The notes under the pieces are model-generated. The model was given only the letters and a program-made list of their open reading frames with translations. It was not told the DNA's origin and searched no databases. A DNA stretch of 64,000 bases, taken from the NCBI RefSeq assembly GCF_020215665.1, contig NZ_CP084061.1:3456501-3520500 (forward strand), written 5' to 3'. The stretch comes from Blautia parvula. Lineage in GTDB: Bacteria > Bacillota > Clostridia > Lachnospirales > Lachnospiraceae. Position numbers and translations under genes: made by a program. Positions 131-11,943 of the stretch are shown piece after piece. Position 1 is the stretch's first letter, and the number at the start of each line of letters is the position of its first letter.

Positions 131-1390
131 TTACCACCAAGATGATACGAGACTATCGTCGACCACATCATATATTAAATTATTCCCACTAGTATCTAGT
201 ACTTTGATATAGTCATACAACTTTTGGATATCTTTCGCTAATTCATCAGGACTTTCATTATCAAATTCAAACTGACCGACCTTTGACAAAATAGCTCCAT
301 CTCTACATTCATCACCCTCATTAGCTTTTATCAACGCAAGGGAACAGTCCGGCATTGTGCTTATTTCTTCAACACCATCTATACTTGCAATCTTACCTTC
401 TTTAGAAAATACATTGATAATCGCTAGTTTTAATTTTTCATTTCTCAAAGGATTATGAATAAGCTGTTTAAGATTTCCGTATATCGCATGGTTAATAAAC
501 ACATCTAAAAAATTGATGCCTATACTCTTATATGTATAGTTATACTGATGTGCTCCTTCCAAACGAAATCCGCATTCAAAGAATTTGTAGTTCTGCTTCT
601 TGTCTATGAATCCTGAGAAAAATATACAACCATACGTAATGCCCATCGATTTAATCATTTTTCTCAGCTTTTCATCAACTTTTATCTTAAAGTTTTCAAG
701 CTCTCGATGCGGGTAAAGCCAGCATGATTGAACAACCTTTTGAAAGCCATTATCTTTTGCCATAATTACATCATTTGTCGTTAATATAGAAATCTCCCCA
801 TCATTAACCAAATAATAAACATCAATTTTTCTATCTGTAATGTATTCCTCAATAATCACATTCTTGCTATACGATTTTTCAAGAGCCACATCATATGCCA
901 CCAGCAATTCGCTATAGTTCTGGGCAATTCCAACACCAATCGATCCTGCCCTATCTGTAGGTTTTACTATAACTGGATAAGAATCAACATCATTAACAGA
1001 ACTAAACTCTCTGACCGTAGGCACTCTACATTCTCTGCAAAGAGCTTTAAACTTTACTTTGTTCCTAGTCACTTCAAGTTGTTCATTTGTGCAATAACAT
1101 GGTAGGTTTAGTCTCTTACAAATTTTGATTAAGTATTCAATTTTAACTTCGCTATATCCGGCAGTAATTCCATCTACATGATTATCTGAGCAAAGTTGAG
1201 TCATCAAATCTACATCGGTCCAATTTACATTCCACGCTTCGTCTGCAAAAGCTTTTGCCGGACTAAGTTTCAAATCAGTATAATAATCTGCAACAATTAC
1301 ATAGAATCCAAGTTCTTGAGCTCTCTTGACAAGAGTCGTTTCATTAGGTGCTCCGCCTAATATTAGCAATTTTTTCTTTGAATCCTTCAT
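131..1390 (-). CDS. ATP-grasp enzyme of the polysaccharide locus
   Basis: A 419-residue soluble protein. The N-terminus (KKLLILGGAPNE) looks like the pre-ATP-grasp Rossmann-like domain seen in PurK/CarB-type enzymes. A central ATP-grasp core follows, with VIVKPTDRAGSIGVG around residues 140-155 as the phosphate-binding loop and an EEYITDRKID strand after it. Family members ligate a carboxylate to an amine or thiol using ATP. In surface-polysaccharide loci they usually decorate a sugar or make an amino-acid-linked building block, but the substrate cannot be read here. Its ATG overlaps the stop of the sugar transferase by one base (TAATG), so the two are translationally coupled. Confidence 0.85.
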   Translation of the reverse strand: MKDSKKKLLILGGAPNETTLVKRAQELGFYVIVADYYTDLKLSPAKAFADEAWNVNWTDVDLMTQLCSDNHVDGITAGYSEVKIEYLIKICKRLNLPCYCTNEQLEVTRNKVKFKALCRECRVPTVREFSSVNDVDSYPVIVKPTDRAGSIGVGIAQNYSELLVAYDVALEKSYSKNVIIEEYITDRKIDVYYLVNDGEISILTTNDVIMAKDNGFQKVVQSCWLYPHRELENFKIKVDEKLRKMIKSMGITYGCIFFSGFIDKKQNYKFFECGFRLEGAHQYNYTYKSIGINFLDVFINHAIYGNLKQLIHNPLRNEKLKLAIINVFSKEGKIASIDGVEEISTMPDCSLALIKANEGDECRDGAILSKVGQFEFDNESPDELAKDIQKLYDYIKVLDTSGNNLIYDVVDDSLVSSWW

Positions 1391-2073
1391 TAGGCATTCT
1401 CCTCATCATTCCTTTGAACAACGCCATCATCCCATTGTTTCTGTCTATAAGTTGAAAAATCTCCTTGCTGTCCAGCTTCAACCTGATCACTATGTTTAAG
1501 GACTTTTTTCACGGTCAAGAAGATTACTTTTACATCCATTAAAAAGGAAATATTGTTCACGTAATCGATATCATACTTCAAACGTTCATCCCAATTTGCT
1601 GCAGTTCGGCCATTAACCTGAGCCCATCCACTCAATCCGGGTCGAACCAAATGCCGTTTTCGTTCCTCTTTTGTAAAATAAGGTATATATGAAACTGCCC
1701 AAGGTCTAGGACCAACTACACTCATATCACCGATAAGAATGTTCCACGCTTCTGGCAACTCATCTAGGGAAGTAGCACGCAGAATACGACCAAATTTTGT
1801 CAGTCTCACAGAATCAGGAAGCAAGTTACCTTCATCGTCGCGTGCGTTGCTCATAGACCTAAATTTGTACAAAGTAAAGATTTTTTCTTTACCTGTTTCG
1901 GGATCAATCCTTCCCGGTCTCTTCTGTTTAAAAATAATGGGAGTTCCAATATTCAAAGCAACTAACACAGCAATTATTAGGTACAACCAACTAAAAACTA
2001 TAATTGCAAGTAATGCACATATAATATCCAGCATTCGTTTAATTACTCTAGCGTATACGCCATCTATTCTCAT
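1390..2073 (-). CDS. PglC-like undecaprenyl-phosphate phosphoglycosyl transferase
   Basis: A 227-residue monotopic bacterial sugar transferase. A single hydrophobic N-terminal segment (about residues 10-40) precedes the conserved catalytic block: KRPGR, FTLYKFRSM, LRATSLDELPE (with the Asp-Glu pair typical of this family), MSVVGPRP and RPGLSGWAQVNGR. Members transfer a phosphosugar from a UDP-sugar to undecaprenyl phosphate on the inner face of the membrane, the first committed step of repeat-unit assembly. The short length matches PglC/WcaJ-C-terminal-type enzymes rather than the long polytopic ones. With the dehydratase, aminotransferase and acetyltransferase in the same operon, a diacetylbacillosamine-like first sugar is the natural inference. 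It overlaps the GNAT gene by four bases (ATGA). Confidence 0.92.
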   Translation of the reverse strand: MRIDGVYARVIKRMLDIICALLAIIVFSWLYLIIAVLVALNIGTPIIFKQKRPGRIDPETGKEKIFTLYKFRSMSNARDDEGNLLPDSVRLTKFGRILRATSLDELPEAWNILIGDMSVVGPRPWAVSYIPYFTKEERKRHLVRPGLSGWAQVNGRTAANWDERLKYDIDYVNNISFLMDVKVIFLTVKKVLKHSDQVEAGQQGDFSTYRQKQWDDGVVQRNDEENA

Positions 2074-2666
2074 ATTCTTCTCTCCCCGCCCTTTTTGAAA
2101 TATATGACATGTGCGACCTTATCAATGAAATAACGAAGTGCAATGTAGGCATCACTATATGGACACTTCTTTTCCCATCGAGCATAATACACAGAATAAA
2201 AGTTGTTGGATTTTCCAGCCCCATAGGCAACTTTTTTGAATCCTTTTTTCATAAAAGTATTTTTTACTGCTGCGTTTTGTTCTGCTGAGACTGTAAAAAT
2301 CAAATCGACACCTTTACCATCTATGTATCTAAATTGTTCATCAAGAATACTTTGGAAAATATGATGACCTTTATAATTTGCATCTACTCCTGCAAGTTCT
2401 ATATATGCAGCAGAACCTTTATGGAACCATTTATTGCAATCAACAATACTAACAGTACTTGTTCCAACTAATTTGGATTCCAAAGTAGCGATAAATACCT
2501 CACGATTATCTTGATTTAATATCTTTTCAATATCTGTAACAGTAGTACTTCGTGTTCCATAAAGTAAATTCTTTTCAATATTTGCACTGTGTGCTCGACG
2601 AATAAGTTCTGCAACTTGCTCACATGTTATATTACTGTCTTGTAGTTTGCATATCTTTATCTCCAC
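2070..2666 (-). CDS. GNAT-family acetyltransferase
   Basis: A 198-residue protein with a GNAT fold. Features are VFIATLESKLVGTSTVS (beta strands), AYIELAGVDANYKGHHIFQSIL (the acetyl-CoA-binding strand and loop region) and a C-terminal AVKNTFMKKGFKKV segment typical of GNAT motif B. It starts with GTG at 2664-2666, ten bases after GGGAG. It lies between the aminotransferase and the phosphoglycosyl transferase, so it plausibly N-acetylates the new amino sugar. PglD, which does this in Campylobacter, belongs to a different (left-handed beta-helix) fold, so this would be a functional replacement. That role is inference. Confidence 0.75.
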   Translation of the reverse strand: MEIKICKLQDSNITCEQVAELIRRAHSANIEKNLLYGTRSTTVTDIEKILNQDNREVFIATLESKLVGTSTVSIVDCNKWFHKGSAAYIELAGVDANYKGHHIFQSILDEQFRYIDGKGVDLIFTVSAEQNAAVKNTFMKKGFKKVAYGAGKSNNFYSVYYARWEKKCPYSDAYIALRYFIDKVAHVIYFKKGGERRI

Positions 2667-2692: not shown

Positions 2693-3976
2693 TTACTCAA
2701 AACATCCTCTAATAACTTCAATCACTAACTCCTGCTCCTCAGCAGTCATCTTGTTATCCGACGGTAAACAAACACCTCTCTGGAAGATATCAGCACCAAT
2801 GTCTTCAACTCCACCAGCGATATAAGCATTTGTGCGACATCTCAAACTACCATCCCTACCAACTACCTCATGCATTCTGTACATAGGCTGCATATGCATC
2901 GGCTTCCAGATCGGACGACCTTCAGCGTTGATGGAGCTTATAGATTCCAGAATTTCTGTTGGACAAGTCTTGCCGTGTTCCGGCATGTAACATACGTCCG
3001 TTTCCCCTCTAACCTGCTTGCACATAGCACTCTCATCAATAATCAAACTACTTAACCAATAGTTCGGCTCGGTGCCTTCCACAATCGGGTTCATCTTAAC
3101 CGGCAAGTCTGTCAGTCCAGCTTTATATCTCTCGTATACTGCCTTCTTCTGAGCGATGTGCTCCTCAAGATATTCATACTGTCCACGAACAACACCTGCG
3201 ATAACATTGCTCATTCTGTAGTTATAGCCGACTTCTTCATGCTGATACCAAGGAGCGTTCTCACGACTCTGAGTAGACCACTTTCTGGCTTTGTTTGCGT
3301 CTTCAAGGCTATTTGTTAATAAGCAACCACCGCTACTTCCTGTGATGATTTTATTTCCGTTGTAGCTGATTGCTGCATAATCACCAAAGCTACCACACTG
3401 TCTTCCATCAATTGTTGCACCCATGGCTTCGGCTGCATCCTCAATTAGAAGAGCTCCGTGCTTCTCACAGACTCTCTTAATTTCATCCATCCTTCCCGGG
3501 AAACCATAAAGCTCTGCACTGATAACTAGTTTTACTTCCGGATACATTTCAAATGCTTTTTCCAGCGCTACAGGATCCATATTCCAGGATTCTCTTTCTG
3601 TATCAATGAAAATTGGAATACCGCCTTCATAAACCACTGGATTCAGAGTAGCATCAAATGTCATGTCACTACAGAAGACTTTCTTTCCTTCTACTGCACC
3701 ATGACTAATTGCAGGTTTTCCATATAATCGTTCACCAGCTAATTTCACACAAAGATGTAAAGCTGCCGTACAGGCTGACAAACCAACTGCATATTTTACT
3801 TCTGCTTTTTCTGCAGCAATCTTCTCAACTTCATTTATGTTTTTTCCAACTGTACTCATCCAGTTTGTATCATAGGCCTCTTTCATATACTCGAATTCAG
3901 GGCCATGCATTGTCGGACTTGAAAGCCAAATACGTTCAGGATTTTTTTCGATCTTGTGGTTTTCCGGAATAAACAT
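2693..3976 (-). CDS. DegT/DnrJ/EryC1-type sugar aminotransferase (PglE-like)
   Basis: A 427-residue PLP enzyme of the sugar aminotransferase class. It begins with the characteristic IWLSSPTMHG and NWMSTVGKN blocks. It continues with GLSACTAALHL for cofactor phosphate binding, the LIEDAAEAMGA motif carrying the PLP-contacting Asp, and SYNGNKIITGSSGG containing the lysine that forms the internal aldimine. Such enzymes aminate 4-keto nucleotide sugars. The CapD/PglF-type dehydratase upstream would supply that substrate. The RBS AAGAGGAG sits just before the ATG. The 26-base gap to the GNAT gene indicates co-transcription, whereas the 2.7 kb upstream is gene-poor. Confidence 0.93.
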   Translation of the reverse strand: MFIPENHKIEKNPERIWLSSPTMHGPEFEYMKEAYDTNWMSTVGKNINEVEKIAAEKAEVKYAVGLSACTAALHLCVKLAGERLYGKPAISHGAVEGKKVFCSDMTFDATLNPVVYEGGIPIFIDTERESWNMDPVALEKAFEMYPEVKLVISAELYGFPGRMDEIKRVCEKHGALLIEDAAEAMGATIDGRQCGSFGDYAAISYNGNKIITGSSGGCLLTNSLEDANKARKWSTQSRENAPWYQHEEVGYNYRMSNVIAGVVRGQYEYLEEHIAQKKAVYERYKAGLTDLPVKMNPIVEGTEPNYWLSSLIIDESAMCKQVRGETDVCYMPEHGKTCPTEILESISSINAEGRPIWKPMHMQPMYRMHEVVGRDGSLRCRTNAYIAGGVEDIGADIFQRGVCLPSDNKMTAEEQELVIEVIRGCFE

Positions 3977-4143
3977 ACTATCTCCTCTTGTTTGTTAGAT
4001 ATTATTGTCTTTTTATAGTTTCTGTTGTATTGTTATTTTGGTGGAATTTCACCCTTTATCCATAATTTTCAAAATATATAAAAGGCATTTCAGCCTATTG
4101 TCGTCATATCAATTATCATTTAAAATATTCTTACATACACAAC

Positions 4144-4184
4144 AAGTAGCTCTCGACGATCCGTAGATCATCAGAAGGCTACCT
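4144..4184 (-). other. long RNA hairpin upstream of the aminotransferase
   Basis: Arms 4144-4161 and 4166-4184 pair over about 18 positions with a four-base loop, if a few G-U pairs are allowed on the minus-strand transcript. The 3' flank (TTGTTGTG) is not a clean U-tract, so this is not an obvious intrinsic terminator. It would lie in the 5' leader of the aminotransferase mRNA. A processive-antitermination or RNA-stability element is possible but unproven. Confidence 0.5.
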
Positions 4185-4316
4185 GCTCTAATATCTTGCC
4201 TTTTCAGTTTTGGGTTTAGTAAAGACAATCCAGCTTACCACCGTGATAAGCGTTTTCTTTACTTCCCTTCTTAGCAAAATCAAAATCTATTAAAACAGGA
4301 AAGCCTCAGGATCCAC

Positions 4317-4406
4317 TTATTTCCAGTATCCTTGCTGGTTGTCCCTATTATATAATCTTCCCCAGACTTTGCTGGGAAACGGTTTTATCTCAGTTTCTTT
4401 AAACAT
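4317..4406 (-). CDS. 29-residue open frame, possible truncated aminotransferase start
   Basis: An ATG at 4404-4406 is preceded by AGAAGGAG nine bases upstream, so it looks translatable. It encodes 29 residues beginning MFKETEIKPFPSKVW. The first half resembles the extreme N-terminus of polysaccharide aminotransferases (a PxSKVW/IW lead into the LSSPTMHG block). After VW the sequence changes to GRLYNRDNQQGYWK, exactly where the 20-base direct repeat lies. It may be a gene start cut by recombination, or a genuine short peptide. Confidence 0.35.
   Translation of the reverse strand: MFKETEIKPFPSKVWGRLYNRDNQQGYWK
4335..4354 (+). repeat. left copy of 20-bp direct repeat
   Basis: CTGGTTGTCCCTATTATATA here recurs at 6570-6589 in the same orientation with one change (A for G at position 7). 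The two copies bracket about 2.2 kb of poorly coding DNA, as an attachment-site or target-site duplication would. Confidence 0.7.
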
Positions 4407-4814
4407 GGTATTATTCTCCTTCTAAATTTCTATCTCTTCTATACTTCCTTAGTTCCTCACTTAATTACTGATTTTGGACGCAACCTACTACATCTTGCAT
4501 CTATGTTCTTCTTTCTTATAGAACATTTAGTGTGCTTTATTTCAGTCGTATTAACTCCTTCCTATCAGTCATTCATATATATTATTCCCAAGCTGTATTT
4601 AACAGCCTAAGAAGTAACTTTTTTAAAACAATTTCATATCAATATGGCTGTTAATCATGCTCTAATCTCTTGCACTGTGAAGGTCTACTTCATGTGCAGG
4701 AGATTATTTGTTATACTGGTTAAAAAACCACCCTTCTAAAAACTATTAATCTGAAGGTCTTTTATCTTGTTCCGTGAAAGACTCTTCAAAATCAAACCTT
4801 AAGGAGGTAATCAA

Positions 4815-5297
4815 ATGAAAAATGTAATCATCAACCAGCACAATGTTGTTGCGCTTATCGGCAGAACAAACAACAAGCCAACGGTTGCGCTTCCTTTTTT
4901 TCTAAAGGACATTTCACAGTTAGATGTAGATGTTTCTATCCTCTGCCCCATTGACCTTGCAGAATCACTGACCAGTTTACTCAGATTTGTTTTTGAGCCT
5001 GGCTACATTCTAAAACACAAGTCCGGAACCTATGAAGTCCACAAGGTGCATCGTCACTTCTTTAACAGCATTCCTTTACTTGTGGCTGTTACGATTTCTC
5101 AATATGGGGTATCCCGTAATGAAATCACAACGGCGTGTATCCAGCTTACAGATTTTGACACATGTTCTGTAAAAACAGCGCACAATATGTACCGTGGAAT
5201 TTCTCTTGGTCACATTATCTGTCCAGGAAAGAAACACTCTCCCATCATTCTGGCGAATGGATTAAAGGAGGTGAACTTTCATGAAAATCACGGATAA
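4815..5297 (+). CDS. hypothetical protein, opposite strand to the locus
   Basis: A 160-residue frame starting at an ATG seven bases after a near-perfect AAGGAGG, so it is probably real. I do not recognise the family. The protein is soluble by eye, with no signal peptide and no long hydrophobic stretch. It is rich in beta-prone segments such as VVALIGRTNN and VDVSILCPIDLAESLTSLLRFVF. It is the only credible gene within the direct-repeat-bounded segment and runs against the polysaccharide operon, which fits an acquired insertion. A very short frame (5281-5328, 15 codons) overlaps its end after its own GGAGG, suggesting a downstream gene that has decayed. Confidence 0.55.
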   Translation: MKNVIINQHNVVALIGRTNNKPTVALPFFLKDISQLDVDVSILCPIDLAESLTSLLRFVFEPGYILKHKSGTYEVHKVHRHFFNSIPLLVAVTISQYGVSRNEITTACIQLTDFDTCSVKTAHNMYRGISLGHIICPGKKHSPIILANGLKEVNFHENHG

Positions 5298-6569
5298 TCT
5301 CCATCCCTCAAAAGCTGCTCCCTTGTAACCATAACCACCGCAAAGCGTAGTCATCAAAAAAGATATGCCTAACAAAGGCACCTTCTATGCTGTTTTCCTC
5401 AAACGCACTCATTCCTACGGTATCCAGATTTTTATTCTGGAACCCACTCAGAACGATTTCAGAAATTCGCACTTCGTATTGAACGAGAAGAGGAAACAGA
5501 AGATTTGTATCGAAAATTGGATTTATGAATCCTCCCGCATTACATTTACACCAAAGCCATCATATCCTATTTTTTATACAACATTTTTGAATTGTGTGGT
5601 TTCGCCAAATCCCTATTCCATTAATTTTAATAATGTTCATATCAAATATCGGAAGAAGTCTGTTGCTAGAAGAACGGGATATAACATAAGCAACAGAATG
5701 TTTTACAACTCTCCGATTCTGCACCTTCAAAATAAGTCAAGCTATCTCGTGGGCAAAATCTACAATCCCAAAACCACTGGCAAAATCACATGAGATATTC
5801 CACTTCATATGAAGCAACTGGATTTCTACTCCTTCAAGCGAGAACTACGTCCACTTCGGTGGATTATAATCTAGAATCCAATTGCATCCTGGTAGGTATC
5901 CTTGGAACTTTTTCCAGGCACAGACTGCCCATTGAATGTGGATTTCACATATTTGACGAACCATACGAGTATGAAGTTCAAGATTACGGATACATAGGCT
6001 ATCCTTGATTCTCCATTCTGGTTTCTTCTCCAGTACTCAATGCTAATAATGTTATCTGATATTCTATTGTATTAAAGCTTCTTTCAAAGCTCTGATTGGT
6101 ACTCTGAAATTCAAAATACTCATCACAACCTTGAAATCTATGCCGACACCAAACCATATCAATTTACATAATTTTACGTGGTTTGGTGCTTTTGCATAGT
6201 ATAAACTCACGAGCTGCAGTGCGTGTTTCCTTTATTTAAACCATTAAACCTAGCTAGATTAGGCACTTAGACACTTATATTCATTTTTCTGTAATAACTG
6301 CCTCTAGCTTGTCATAATCCATTGTAATTTTATCTTTCTCACAATCTATGTGCTTTGGTAATTTATCACGCTTGCAGATGTAGTATATTTATTATGAAGA
6401 AACTATCACTTCATCCCCAGTATTATGCTCTGCAAATTTGGTCAATGAAACGGGTGCCAGAAGGTTAATGTATATTGATTGAAATTGATAATCCTCCCCA
6501 TATTGAACAAAAGATTATAAAGATGGGACTCGACTAAGCCCTTAAACACTTGTAAATACTGGTTTTTCT
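5298..6569. other. decayed, gene-poor DNA inside the direct-repeat segment
   Basis: About 1.3 kb with only weak frames. The plus-strand frames near 5365-5793 and 5790-6008 lack a ribosome binding site, and their composition does not look like protein. One alternative frame around 5440-5520 reads like a real helical segment (ERFQKFALRIEREEETEDL) but is broken. A minus-strand remnant ends in a stop at 6281-6283 and can be read back to about 6375, with residues such as MDYDKLEAVITEK at its C-terminus. An inverted repeat CACCAAACCA/TGGTTTGGTG (6147-6188) could be a terminator. I read the stretch as remnants of an old mobile or recombined segment. Confidence 0.5.
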
Positions 6570-6589
6570 CTGGTTATCCCTATTATATA
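6570..6589 (+). repeat. right copy of 20-bp direct repeat
   Basis: CTGGTTATCCCTATTATATA matches 4335-4354 at 19 of 20 positions in the same orientation. It lies about 80 bases beyond the 3' end of the dehydratase gene. Confidence 0.7.
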
Positions 6590-6670
6590 TTTATTGATAG
6601 ACTTTTTAATTAAATCATGCAAACGCGTTGCCGTCAGAATCAAATAAAACTACGCTAATTTAATCAAAAC

Positions 6671-8926
6671 TTATCGTGAAATAGCCCTATCCTGTTTGTA
6701 AGTTGGCACCACGTTTTGCACCAAATCACAAATATCCTCCCGGTTGGAATAACTGGCCTTCGCCAAATTCTCCAAATCCTCCAAAAACTTCTCCAAATCA
6801 AACGGAATCGGACTCCCAATATGTATCAACTTATTCGGCGTAGTCTTCATCCCTTCCTCCGCCATAAGTTTCTCTTCATAAAGCTTCTCCCCAGGCCTCA
6901 ACCCAGTATACACAACCGAAATATCCACATCCGGCTTATACCCCGACAGCTTTATCAAGTTCCTTGCCAACGTATCAATCTTCACCGGTGCACCCATATC
7001 CAGCACAAATATCTCTCCACCCTTCGCATACGTTCCCGCCTGCAACACAAGGCTCACCGCTTCAGGTATCGTCATAAAGTACCGAATGATATCCGGATGC
7101 GTAACCGTAACCGGCCCGCCAGCCTCAATCTGTTTCTTAAAAAGAGGAATCACAGACCCATTACTTCCTAAAACATTACCAAATCGAACCGCCACAAAAT
7201 CTGTAGCTTTCCTTTTACCTTCTTTATACTCCCCAAATTGTTCTCTGGTAGCAGCAACCATATCATAATCTGCACCTTCATCATGCCCATTCAAATCCGG
7301 CAAAACAATCGGCTTACCCTGTTTACTCAGCCTGTCCATAGTCTGAATCACCATTTCACACAGCCTCTTGCTCGCTCCCATAATATTCGTAGGATTAACC
7401 GCCTTATCTGTACTGATCAGCACAAACTTCTCACACCCACTCTGCAGTGCCGCGCTGGCAGTCTTATACGTTCCCAGAACATTATTCTTAATGGCCTCAC
7501 AAGGACTTGTCTCTATCAACGGCACGTGCTTATGCGCCGCCGCATGATAAACCACATCCGGCCTATACTCCGCGAACACACTGTTAATTCGTCTGCTATC
7601 CCTCACAGACCCAATCAAAACAACCAAATCAAGTTTCGGATATTTCCTCCTCAACTCCTGTTCAATGTCATAAGCATTATTCTCATAAATATCAAATATA
7701 ATTAGCCGTTTCGGACCATGCGCCGCAATCTGCCGACACAACTCGCTGCCAATAGAACCACCGCCACCGGTAACCAGAATCGTCTTATTCCTCAGCGCAT
7801 TGAAGATTTCCTCCATGTTTACCTTAATCGGATCTCTCCCCAGCAAATCCTCCACAGCCACACTCTTCATCTTACTAATTGACACTTCCCCATTCACCAA
7901 CTGATAAATCCCCGGAAGTATCTTCATTTCGCACCCAGTCTCCTTACAGATATTGAGAATATCTCTCTTCTCCTCAGCCGTAGCACTGGGAATCGCCAAT
8001 AAAATCTGATCAATCTTATATTTTTCCGCACTCAGCAGAATATCATCCCTGCCTCCAACAATCGGAATACCTTCTATGTAACGCCCCATCTTATTCGGGT
8101 TATCGTCAATAATACAGCAAACCTTTGCCTTCACTTCACTGGCCCGGTTCAAATCCCTGATTATAATCTGTCCTGCAGCTCCCGCACCAATCAGCATCAC
8201 CCGATGTAGCACGGCATCCTCTTCACTCTGTTTGTTCCTACTGCGTTCCAGCAAAATAAACCGATAAGAAAACCTAACCGCAACCGTAAACACAAACTGT
8301 AACATTATCCCAAACAGATAATAAGAAATCGGCATTCTCTTAAAAAACAAAGTTATCCCAACTATCTGCACCAGCCCGGTAATCACATTCGCCGCCCCAA
8401 CCCGGAACAGCTCACTGAAACTCGCAAACCGCCAAACGCTCTTATACAACCTAAGCGCCCAATACACTCCAATACAAACCACCGTATACCAAGGTGCAAA
8501 CTTCAAAAACGCCCCCAGATAAACATCCGGAATCATAGAGTATCTGCAGTCAAACCGAACCCACAGAGCCAGCATAAACGCCGCGTTCACAGCCACAACA
8601 TCATACAGCATCAGCCAAAGCGCAATCGCCTGCCAATGTTCCATGAATTTTCTTTTCTTACCGGCCTTCCGCATCAGCTCTTCCTGAATCTTATCCCTCT
8701 CATCATTGGCCTCTGCTACCTTCCATTTTCTCTCCTCGTCACCGGTCATGCCAGAACGGTTTCCCCTGCTCTCGTCATCTCCCGCATCCTTACCGCCTCG
8801 AATAAACGCTTCCTGCTCTTTATCCTCTCTCTTCCTGTCTCCGGAGTTAATCTTCGCCAAAGCAAACACCATCACAAACAGAAACAGTACCAGCAGAAGC
8901 AGCAGCACAATGATTATCTGCCACAT
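6671..8926 (-). CDS. CapD/PglF-like membrane nucleotide-sugar 4,6-dehydratase
   Basis: 751 residues, longer than the usual 600-650. Residues 1-24 are an extra hydrophobic segment, and residues 25-95 are a highly charged linker not normal for the family. Four to five membrane segments follow (about 97-225), then a CoA-binding-like Rossmann domain (GAGAAGQ, 247-253) and the catalytic SDR domain. That domain has GGGGSIGSE at 387-395, AHKHVPL at 464-470, and STDKAVNP followed by MGASK at 516-520. The MxxxK in place of YxxxK is the hallmark of the WbpM/PglF branch, which converts UDP-GlcNAc to a 4-keto-6-deoxy sugar. A GGGGAG RBS precedes the ATG directly after the structured RNA candidate. Confidence 0.95.
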   Translation of the reverse strand: MWQIIIVLLLLLVLFLFVMVFALAKINSGDRKREDKEQEAFIRGGKDAGDDESRGNRSGMTGDEERKWKVAEANDERDKIQEELMRKAGKKRKFMEHWQAIALWLMLYDVVAVNAAFMLALWVRFDCRYSMIPDVYLGAFLKFAPWYTVVCIGVYWALRLYKSVWRFASFSELFRVGAANVITGLVQIVGITLFFKRMPISYYLFGIMLQFVFTVAVRFSYRFILLERSRNKQSEEDAVLHRVMLIGAGAAGQIIIRDLNRASEVKAKVCCIIDDNPNKMGRYIEGIPIVGGRDDILLSAEKYKIDQILLAIPSATAEEKRDILNICKETGCEMKILPGIYQLVNGEVSISKMKSVAVEDLLGRDPIKVNMEEIFNALRNKTILVTGGGGSIGSELCRQIAAHGPKRLIIFDIYENNAYDIEQELRRKYPKLDLVVLIGSVRDSRRINSVFAEYRPDVVYHAAAHKHVPLIETSPCEAIKNNVLGTYKTASAALQSGCEKFVLISTDKAVNPTNIMGASKRLCEMVIQTMDRLSKQGKPIVLPDLNGHDEGADYDMVAATREQFGEYKEGKRKATDFVAVRFGNVLGSNGSVIPLFKKQIEAGGPVTVTHPDIIRYFMTIPEAVSLVLQAGTYAKGGEIFVLDMGAPVKIDTLARNLIKLSGYKPDVDISVVYTGLRPGEKLYEEKLMAEEGMKTTPNKLIHIGSPIPFDLEKFLEDLENLAKASYSNREDICDLVQNVVPTYKQDRAISR

Positions 8927-8984: not shown

Positions 8985-9125
8985 TTGAATATTCTCTGCC
9001 CCCAAAGAGCAATTCTTCGCCGACACCAAAAGGAGCCGACCGGCGATATTCAACCGGAAACCATGCGTCACTGGCGCACAGCCTCTTGCCAGTTTCCCGG
9101 CATCTATATAAGAGTGAATATTCAC
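8985..9125 (-). ncRNA. candidate guide RNA scaffold beside the TnpB-like gene
   Basis: In the roughly 210 bases between the TnpB-like stop and the dehydratase start, the minus strand folds by eye into several strong stems. 9114-9125 is a perfect 12-base palindrome (GTGAATATTCAC). 9092-9100 pairs with 9054-9061 (CCGGGAAAC/GTTTCCGG, one bulge), enclosing 9088-9093 with 9070-9075 (ACTGGC/GCCAGT). 9046-9053 pairs perfectly with 8985-8992 (TTGAATAT/ATATTCAA), enclosing 9041-9046 with 9017-9022 (CGGCGA/TCGCCG read on the plus strand). TnpB and its nuclease-dead relatives use an RNA encoded at and just past the 3' end of the gene, with the guide at the RNA 3' end, so the position and strand fit. Any guide would begin near 8984, in an A-rich stretch. 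No protein frame here is convincing. Confidence 0.65.
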
Positions 9126-9138
9126 ACTTATTTCCGAA

Positions 9139-10341
9139 TTATTTTCGTTTTCGCTCGAAATCTTTCTGGCATTTCACTCCAAGATTTCTGGCGCTGTTCA
9201 GGAAACGGCTTCCCTGATGTCCATTTTCGCATTCAAACATGGCCCCGTTCTTCCTGATTTTCCCTCCGCAGACAAAACATCTGCTGCTTGTCCCTTCCGC
9301 GCTGAGCTCCAGAACCACAATCCCGGCAATCCATGCCTTGTATTTTAGAAACTCTCTTATCCGGCTTCCCAAATACAGCGGTGAATACATCCCGGAACGA
9401 TACTGCACCATCTTTGAAAATTCCTTGTCATAAGACGGAATCACAATGACCCTTGCCTCTTCCCTCACACAGAAATCCACGATTTCCCTGCTCACCTGGT
9501 GCGCATAGTGATCAGAAAGATTTTTTAACCGCAAATAATATTTGTGGTTGGGCTGCGTCACATTATCTTTGTCCGTATAAACCCTGGACTTCTCAATCTT
9601 CTCCAGAAGGACTTTGCATTTGCTCCTGTAAGCATCCCCGCCTCTGCAGGAATACACTGCCTTCTGTTTCCCATCTGCATCCAACACACAGCACATGGCA
9701 AAAATGTCTGTGTTCGTAAACTGAACACTGCATACATTCTCCCGGTCCTTCATCCGCTCTTTCGCGTTCCTGGCATCCTCTGTCTGCTGTTTGACGGGCA
9801 CGTGAAGCCAGAACTCCTTCTCCTTAAAAACAACCGTCGGAGAAAGCATCAGAGCTTCTTCCGGAATCGACTGCCCTTTTAACCTGCAGTCCATCCAATT
9901 CCACCTGTTTCCGTCCCATACCTTCAGGGAAATCCTGTTTTCCTTAAAATCCTTATACATCCCCTTAAAGTAGGTAACAGACGCATCAATGGTATCCGGT
10001 ATAGTGTAGACCAGATCATCGCCGGAATTTTTATACTTTTCTGTATAACTCTTCAAACTGGCAGAGGCTTTGTTAATCGCCGAGCGCCTGAAATAGACAG
10101 GAACCCTGCCAAAAGGCAGAGGCTGCTCGGGTATTCTTCCGTCTCTTCCCGCAATCGTCAGGCGCTCTAATGAGCCCTGCATCTGAAGAACGTTCAGTTC
10201 CCAGATTTCCTCATGCTCCAGTAGCAGGCGGAAATAAAAATCCAGGACCTGTCTGTAGTATTTCTCAGTCTCTGTCAGCCACTCCGGATGAGAACAGCGA
10301 AGTTTGTATTTTATTGTCTTAATGCTGTATCCTGTTTTCAT
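9139..10341 (-). CDS. TnpB-family protein with all RuvC catalytic acids replaced
   Basis: 400 residues with TnpB/OrfB layout. It has an N-terminal IKTIKYKLRC strand, an LPFGRVPVYFRRSAINKASASLKSY helix block (75-99), a RuvC-like core from about 203 and a late zinc finger (C355, C358, C371, H375). The alignment is recognisable: TSSRCFVCG matches the TSQTCSECG block and LNSARNL matches the DVNAARNI block. The catalytic residues are absent. The RuvC-I Asp is F208 (VQFTN), the RuvC-II Glu is P302 (VIVIPSY) and the RuvC-III Asp is F380. The fourth zinc ligand of the usual CxxC pair is also lost. No TnpA and no transposon ends are visible. It probably binds DNA with an RNA guide but cannot cut, like described TnpB-derived repressors. 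The RBS before the ATG is weak (TTGGAA). Confidence 0.85.
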   Translation of the reverse strand: MKTGYSIKTIKYKLRCSHPEWLTETEKYYRQVLDFYFRLLLEHEEIWELNVLQMQGSLERLTIAGRDGRIPEQPLPFGRVPVYFRRSAINKASASLKSYTEKYKNSGDDLVYTIPDTIDASVTYFKGMYKDFKENRISLKVWDGNRWNWMDCRLKGQSIPEEALMLSPTVVFKEKEFWLHVPVKQQTEDARNAKERMKDRENVCSVQFTNTDIFAMCCVLDADGKQKAVYSCRGGDAYRSKCKVLLEKIEKSRVYTDKDNVTQPNHKYYLRLKNLSDHYAHQVSREIVDFCVREEARVIVIPSYDKEFSKMVQYRSGMYSPLYLGSRIREFLKYKAWIAGIVVLELSAEGTSSRCFVCGGKIRKNGAMFECENGHQGSRFLNSARNLGVKCQKDFERKRK

Positions 10342-10370
10342 TCGTTTATTCCAATAAATGGGACATATTT

Positions 10371-10387
10371 TTTTAGAAATGCGACAT
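10371..10387 (+). repeat. left inverted repeat (recombination site)
   Basis: Perfect 17-bp inverse match to 11861-11877. A related sequence, AAATGGGACATA (10356-10367), repeats AAATGCGACATA (10377-10388) with 11 of 12 identities and a 21-bp shift. This would give recombinase-binding elements on the same helical face. Confidence 0.75.
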
Positions 10388-11597: not shown

Positions 11598-11647
11598 ATT
11601 GACCTCCTTAAAATTAAGAATTTCTTAAATGAATTCAGACCATTTTT

Positions 11648-11676
11648 TTGACCACTAATGATTATCTATTAATAAT
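11648..11676 (+). promoter_or_regulatory. outward promoter inside the invertible segment
   Basis: TTGACC, 17 bases, AATAAT on the plus strand. In the present orientation it fires rightward toward the hairpin at 11944-11993 and has no sense gene. After inversion it would fire into the TnpB-like gene and the polysaccharide operon. Confidence 0.5.
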
Positions 11677-11775: not shown

Positions 11776-11804
11776 TTGACTTTAAAGACTTTTAGCGTTA
11801 AACT
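11776..11804 (+). promoter_or_regulatory. second outward promoter candidate
   Basis: TTGACT, 17 bases, TAAACT on the plus strand, about 60 bases inside the right inverted repeat. The -10 is weaker than that of the 11648 candidate. Confidence 0.35.
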
Positions 11805-11860: not shown

Positions 11861-11877
11861 ATGTCGCATTTCTAAAA
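11861..11877 (-). repeat. right inverted repeat (recombination site)
   Basis: ATGTCGCATTTCTAAAA is the exact reverse complement of 10371-10387. Here CGCATT and AATGCG flank an 8-base centre (TCTAAAAT), the usual shape of a tyrosine-recombinase core site: two inverted arms and a 6-8 base crossover. Confidence 0.75.
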
Positions 11878-11943
11878 TAATGCGGTTCAAAAAAGGAGCC
11901 CGCCTCCGCGCGAACTCCTGCAAATACCAATTACAACGTTACC

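Follow-up and report, generated by a model that had tools for sequence, protein, structure and literature searches.

Why should a gene for a TnpB homologue that has lost its catalytic residues stand at the head of an operon for surface polysaccharide? The question is raised by a 64,000-nt stretch of the Blautia parvula genome (contig NZ_CP084061.1, positions 3,456,501 to 3,520,500), referred to here as the window, in which a sequence-only reading had described such a gene. We consider it probable that the gene belongs to a phase-variable polysaccharide operon that makes a TldR-like RNA-guided repressor, which blocks other polysaccharide operons. The invertible segment, the guide-like RNA and the candidate target on which this answer draws had gone unnoticed in that reading.

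A TnpB homologue without catalytic acids

The protein matches the Pfam family Cas12f1-like_TNB (E 6.8e-11, above the cut-off) and scores 66 bits against the NCBIfam model guided_TnpB, which is under that model's cut-off of 100. A structure prediction, proposed in the sequence-only reading as a check, was run using four aligned relatives (mean pLDDT 66, pTM 0.53). The resulting model finds AsCas12f (E 4.6e-11) and ISDra2 TnpB (9e-6) in the PDB and thus resembles Cas12f and TnpB structures; the order of its elements is TnpB-like, and the protein has a zinc finger, as does active TnpB. Together, the family and structural matches bear out the identification of a TnpB homologue.

For the catalytic residues, the members of the family were compared in an alignment to five annotated TnpBs plus a phage homologue that carries no annotation. 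The RuvC acids had been said to be replaced by F208, P302 and F380. The catalytic Glu of the TnpBs does align with P302 and the second Asp with F380, whereas the first Asp falls on Q207, the neighbour of F208, so that the earlier assignment was one residue off at this position. The same reading had asked whether orthologues also lack the acids, and they do: none of 25 family members has an acid at position 207 or at 302, nor does any of the 24 that extend to position 380. Among 23 further gene matches, two of which are contigs of L002 and L004, position 302 is P in 21 and A in two altered copies.

Next to the window gene, Pfam identifies the recombinase and capsule genes, and inspection by eye adds genes resembling MurF, Ddl and AraC, in agreement with the claim that no TnpA lies beside it. 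Neither the catalytic acids nor a TnpA within an IS200/IS605 element was found for the window gene by Pfam and alignment. At the level of sequence, these results support the view that it encodes a nuclease-dead TnpB homologue outside a transposon and linked to surface polysaccharide. In one relative, an IS200/IS605 TnpA-like gene and a separate TnpB-like gene, both named by eye, adjoin the dead copy as a pair (L056:3859-5391).

Operon setting and distribution

Table 1. Features of the window discussed in the text, in order of position.
Feature	Position	Strand	Basis
ATP-grasp enzyme	131..1390	-	Pfam
Initiating sugar transferase (Bac_transf)	1390..2073	-	E 2.9e-58
Weak GNAT acetyltransferase match	2070..2666	-	E 7.4e-5, below cut-off
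LegC-like DegT/DnrJ aminotransferase	2693..3976	-	Pfam and NCBIfam
CapD/PseB-like nucleotide-sugar dehydratase (next gene after dead TnpB)	6671..8926	-	Polysacc_synt_2, E 5.3e-117
Putative guide start AGTAATAATAAA, directly behind the helix	8973..8984	-	Matches site G000:C1:492146-492160, outside the window
OmegaRNA-like guide-RNA scaffold (putative)	8985..9131	-	Fold z -3.6; helix and covariation
Terminal helix strands of scaffold	9046-9052 and 8986-8992	-	Helix pairing, covariation
Nuclease-dead TnpB-like gene (tldR-like), 400 aa	9139..10341	-	Open ORF; Pfam, NCBIfam, model, alignment
Inverted-repeat arm adjoining dead TnpB gene	10367..10387	.	Repeat comparison
Tyrosine recombinase within inverted-repeat segment	10461..11597	-	Pfam Phage_integrase, E 4.3e-22
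Promoter-like site TTGACT-17-TAAACT (9 of 12), directed away from dead TnpB gene	11776..11804	+	Consensus scan
Distal inverted-repeat arm	11861..11881	.	20 of 21 bases complementary

Read along the minus strand, the genes follow one another in the order recombinase, dead TnpB, dehydratase, aminotransferase, weak acetyltransferase match, sugar transferase and ATP-grasp enzyme (Table 1). The placement at the head of a polysaccharide operon was therefore correctly described for the window, and most of the relatives examined share it: in 23 of 28 loci, Pfam or BLAST identifies an enzyme of polysaccharide type downstream. These include L048, where the enzyme is about 8 kb on, and L053, where the TnpB gene and its polysaccharide operon diverge. 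Whether orthologues always lie at such loci had also been asked; this holds for the 23. The other five comprise a locus with DUF4422 and glycosyltransferase-like genes recognised by eye (L059), one with phosphoglucomutase (L050), one with a truncated gene like that of L052 (L055), and two that could not be judged (L046 and L049).

Two further features of these operons were observed. The operon in the window contains 2.7 kb without a long minus-strand ORF (3977-6670), and there is a similar gap in L013 and none in L015. At L053:10831-12190, similar palindromes flank the divergent TnpB-like gene, as if the gene itself lay within an invertible segment.

The gene has a patchy distribution: it was found in 4 of 116 relatives, 9 of 397 genomes in the family and 6 of 392 in the order, the window's own genome being included each time, and in 15 of 64 genomes of another genus. 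With 4 of 116 relatives as carriers the distribution is not wide, and a family-wide rule can therefore not be claimed. There are up to four matches per genome and one in the genome of the window. Decay is evident in some copies: those of G754 and G764 are altered, and the G707 gene has been cut down to a 115-aa fragment right behind the sugar transferase of a capsule locus (L060:4573-4920). No relative could be confirmed among viral contigs scanned with the alignment of the family. Phage records yielded one distant match and plasmid records 29 matches, most of those viewed being annotated as TnpB.

A putatively invertible segment upstream of the gene

Inverted repeats of 21 bp enclose a 1.5-kb segment that contains the recombinase and a promoter-like site. 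Because the consensus scan finds 7 such sites as compared to 3.3 in shuffles, the promoter call for the window rests mainly on homology to L016, in which the corresponding end of the segment faces the gene (73% over 124 nt). With its putative promoter facing away from the gene, the window copy would be in the OFF orientation. A repeat pair matching at at least 17 of 20 positions, with one arm at most 150 bp from the gene, is present at 26 of the 46 loci with enough upstream sequence, compared to 4 of 276 shuffles; this count omits the duplicate contigs L256 and L257, as well as three loci whose upstream sequence is short.

The comparison of two closely related genomes, G661 and G737, is more direct. 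Both flanks align on the same strand (96.6% and 97.2%), whereas over the 1,446 bp enclosed by the repeats the alignment is to the opposite strand (91.5%), and a TTGACA-17-TATCAT site faces the gene in G661 and away from it in G737. Judged from these alignments, the equivalent segment is inverted between the two genomes, which is direct evidence of flipping; the two orientations were seen between these relatives and not in the species of the window. GTGGTCA words are repeated inside the invertible segments upstream of L043, L044, L045, L057 and L058 and at 11640-11660 of the window, and are possibly arm sites of the recombinase.

A guide-RNA-like element behind the gene

The stretch past the stop codon of the dead TnpB gene has a predicted minimum free energy of -57.1 kcal/mol (z -3.6); an Rfam search of the window returned nothing at gathering scores. 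A terminal helix with 6-7 of 7 pairs could be drawn in all 28 related loci, in which the strand before C[G/A]CC pairs with a strand ending one base short of AG[U/G/A][U/A]AU. The script that located the helix required the motifs AGNNAT and CRCC and kept the best pairing, which inflates the pairing, and strand-exchange, shuffle and slide controls and a looser motif were therefore used.

Among 20 distinct sequences, 89.3% of cells were paired and all seven pairs had changed on both sides, with 37 double changes as compared to 12.4 in shuffles. Sliding the partner strand gave at most 45.7% paired, and swapping strands between loci lowered the mean from 6.43 to 5.12 pairs, with none of 2000 exchanges reaching the observed value. 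The outermost pair was unpaired in 14 of the 20 sequences, and two of the five helix measures were not above shuffles (25 of 500 and 236 of 500 shuffles as high). With the looser end motif, AGTTAT or AGTAAT was found behind the helix in 17 of the 23 further gene matches; of the rest, inspection by eye adds CTTGAAGTTAT in four, one could not be located in the stretch inspected, and the last is altered.

Behind the helix, the putative guide start is near-constant (AGUWAU), and the next start codon follows some 20-40 nt after it in several loci. The element appears guide-RNA-like, occupying the position of an omegaRNA with the guide after the helix. Variable guides of 16-20 nt, considered as a candidate, were dropped, because conservation among orthologues past the helix spans only some 6-12 nt. 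Variant guide ends, AGGTAT or AGATAT, occur in some of the copies of G035, G236 and G304.

A structured RNA inside the operon, behind a gene that heads long polysaccharide operons and with a near-constant 3' end running into the leader of the next gene, would also be expected if the dead TnpB were a cis-acting RNA-binding antiterminator or processing factor. As an antiterminator, the protein would bind the scaffold in the nascent operon RNA and let polymerase pass into the long operon in the manner of the UpxY-type proteins of Bacteroides, which head capsule operons with invertible promoters (PMC12118408). We regard this as unlikely, since it leaves unexplained both the presence of AGTWAT behind a TAGATA-type flank in separate capsule loci and the excess of such sites in carriers, and since the predicted fold is that of RNA-guided DNA-binding proteins. 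The occurrence of these sites bears on whether the RNA could instead direct a repressor to DNA.

Candidate target sites in the first genome set

In the genome of the window (G000), a match to the guide start is located at C1:492146, right behind the initiating sugar transferase of a separate main capsule locus. That the guide start matches a site in another sugar-coat cluster suggests that switching one coat on shuts another off. The sequence TAGATAAGTAATAA is kept behind 96%-identical genes in G000, G008 and G009, while the surrounding intergenic DNA has diverged.

The pattern TTDGATAAGTWATW has 19 matches in 13 genomes with the gene or a fragment of it and 4 in 14 genomes without; read backwards, it has 5 and 6, respectively. 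The carrier matches are located at polysaccharide or tldR-like loci in 14 of 19 cases, compared to 0 of 4 non-carrier matches (p 0.014). For TAGATAAGTWATAA, 8 of the 9 matches in carriers are at such loci, and the one match in non-carriers (G013) is likewise at a capsule locus. A site near the sugar transferase of the capsule locus is present in all 6 carriers, as compared to 1 of 7 non-carriers (p 0.004), a comparison that covers the 13 of 27 genomes with a readable close sugar-transferase ortholog and omits G707 (decayed copy) and G005 (contig end). In G160, the site is about 0.9 kb and one gene behind the sugar transferase.

Beyond the putative TAM, guide and site match over 6-10 nt only, and the sequence behind is often just the leader of the next gene. 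A 6-nt guide sufficed for repression by a flagellin TldR (PMC13418256). Guide and site agree by genus, with AGTAAT facing AGTAAT in G000, G008 and G009 and AGTTAT facing AGTTAT in G325, G661 and G160. At the sites read at polysaccharide or tldR-like loci, the guide start has the sequence of the sense strand, and it could therefore pair only with the template DNA strand and not with the transcript. DGATAAGTTAT sites are also found in the leaders of tldR-like operons, which implies self-repression.

Other features were seen around the capsule loci. A second site, AAGATAAGTTATAA, is located at the downstream end of the locus in G325 (L190:6806) and G661 (L191:7075). A short way before the site, the capsule loci L086, L087, L088 and L194 have hairpins that differ in sequence. 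IS110-type transposase genes or fragments, recognised by eye, are close to the capsule site of the window genome (L084:9112-10323) and to the G736 site in the second genus (L244:4277-5728).

Sites in a second genus and variant seeds

In the second genus, TAGATAAGTWATA occurs in 6 of 12 previously unused carriers as compared to 5 of 49 non-carriers (p 0.005); read backwards, it has no match in the carriers and 10 in the non-carriers. The exact 13-mer was absent from 6 of the 12 newly examined carriers. Two of the 12, G746 and G763, hold contigs already known for the gene (L004 and L002, respectively), and neither has the site.

Seven of the nine carrier sites are at polysaccharide or tldR-like loci, including the G734 site, which lies 0.8 kb before a UDP-glucose-dehydrogenase-like gene. 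The remaining two are a G736 site of ambiguous context, with no capsule gene found beside it, and a G739 site inside another, unrelated gene. Two of the five non-carrier sites are at polysaccharide-type loci (G741 and G755). Counted by genome, a polysaccharide-located site is present in 4 of 12 carriers and 2 of 49 non-carriers (p 0.011).

The variant-seed pattern TTDGATAAGRTATW was considered as a test of specificity and rejected, since genomes that lack the gene have it about as often. Of its five matches in G035, one (TTAGATAAGGTATA) is located directly behind the end of a further TnpB-like gene; read from the sequence, it is one supporting case and no proof of covariation between guide and site.

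These counts also bear on a second alternative, in which capsule operons have the TAGATAAGTWATA site as a leader or regulatory element of no relation to the RNA, its likeness to the RNA end having some other cause, and the dead TnpB has a different role. Such an element would account for the sites at capsule-type loci in three non-carriers from the two genome sets (G013, G741 and G755), and leader elements would run sense, as do the sites read at polysaccharide or tldR-like loci. It accounts less well for the excess of sites in carriers and for the agreement of guide and site at the genus level (AGTAAT; AGTTAT), and gene loss or incomplete assemblies may explain the non-carriers. We consider this explanation quite improbable. 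A decaying transposon remnant that sits by chance at capsule loci is disfavoured and scarcely credible, since the long open frames and the dead site kept across genera, RNA covariation and a recurrent operon-head position outweigh the decaying copies noted above.

Proposed mechanism

For the RNA-guided repressor, we propose the following sequence of events. The tyrosine recombinase would flip a promoter-bearing segment between the inverted repeats. In the ON state, the operon transcript would yield the dead TnpB, the enzymes for one surface polysaccharide and, from the gap that follows the TnpB gene, an omegaRNA-like guide RNA. The complex of protein and RNA would recognise TAGATA, as a TAM, followed by AGTWAT, corresponding to the first 6-10 nt of the guide. 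Its sites in the main capsule locus would be behind or near the initiating sugar transferase and before further polysaccharide genes, and other operons of this kind would have additional sites in their leaders or gaps. At the TAGATAAGTWAT sites of the main capsule locus, binding by the complex would be expected to depend on RNA. By blocking transcription at its sites, the complex would lower one coat when another is ON, and where an operon has such sites in its own leader, cross-silencing or self-limitation would be added.

The basis of this scheme is comparative: a dead active site, covariation in the helix, the position in the operon, the repeats, the apparent inversion between relatives and the conserved candidate sites. 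Weighing against it are the short match of guide and site, the carriers that lack the exact 13-mer, the three non-carriers with the site at capsule-type loci, the mostly negative variant-seed result, the leader sites that imply self-repression, and the outermost helix pair and two helix measures noted above. From these we infer the expression and processing of the RNA, the binding to DNA, the blocking of transcription and the mutual exclusion of coats.

With somewhat less assurance, we lean towards a more general reading in which these operons constitute a family of RNA-guided capsule-exclusion switches in Lachnospiraceae-type bacteria. Each invertible operon would bring a dead TnpB of its own whose seed, hard-wired and some 6 nt long, would silence the main capsule locus and the sister switch operons via shared TAGATA-AGTWAT sites. 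If so, the switches would be an RNA-guided counterpart of UpxZ-type exclusion in which the guide has become fixed. If the scheme is true, a common gut family uses natural CRISPRi-like control together with DNA inversion to choose its surface polysaccharide. How such cells keep a single coat on at any time would then have an answer open to direct test, and the protein would be an unusual RNA-guided one, with a guide that is fixed and no longer programmable.

Relation to known systems

Known TldR clades include those of fliC, oppF and csrA, with which the window system may have a common or a separate origin. No description of the system proposed here was among the papers listed on TnpB in relation to polysaccharide, capsule, transcription or loss of nuclease activity, or on invertons in Blautia or Lachnospiraceae, a body of literature that did not include the 2024 TldR paper and the 2023 TnpB survey.

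Active TnpBs of IS200/IS605 elements share the fold, the zinc finger and an RNA element behind the gene, whereas the window gene has lost the three acids, has no TnpA beside it and belongs to a family with a fixed place at polysaccharide operons. The closer likeness is to TldR, especially the csrA-associated systems of Oscillibacter and Flavonifractor. The likeness (PMC13418256) lies in a dead TnpB with a guide RNA, here putative, behind the gene, and would extend to a short seed against a genomic target at the cell surface, which in our case is a candidate; with the csrA-linked systems it would further include several cross-targeting copies per genome and an upstream recombinase with DNA inversion. 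The window system differs in its link to a polysaccharide operon instead of flagellin or csrA, in a near-constant guide start of 6-10 nt, in a tyrosine recombinase and not Hin, and in candidate sites located in the intergenic gaps and leaders of polysaccharide operons.

The other point of comparison is UpxY/UpxZ of Bacteroides. The window protein has Pfam and NCBIfam matches of TnpB type and none of the type of the NusG-like UpxY or of UpxZ. The common elements are invertible promoters, a regulator at the head of the operon and the expected exclusion between capsule loci (PMC12118408). UpxZ is a protein inhibitor of antitermination by UpxY, whereas the agent proposed here is RNA-guided. By analogy, the window system would work like UpxY/UpxZ and is no member of it.
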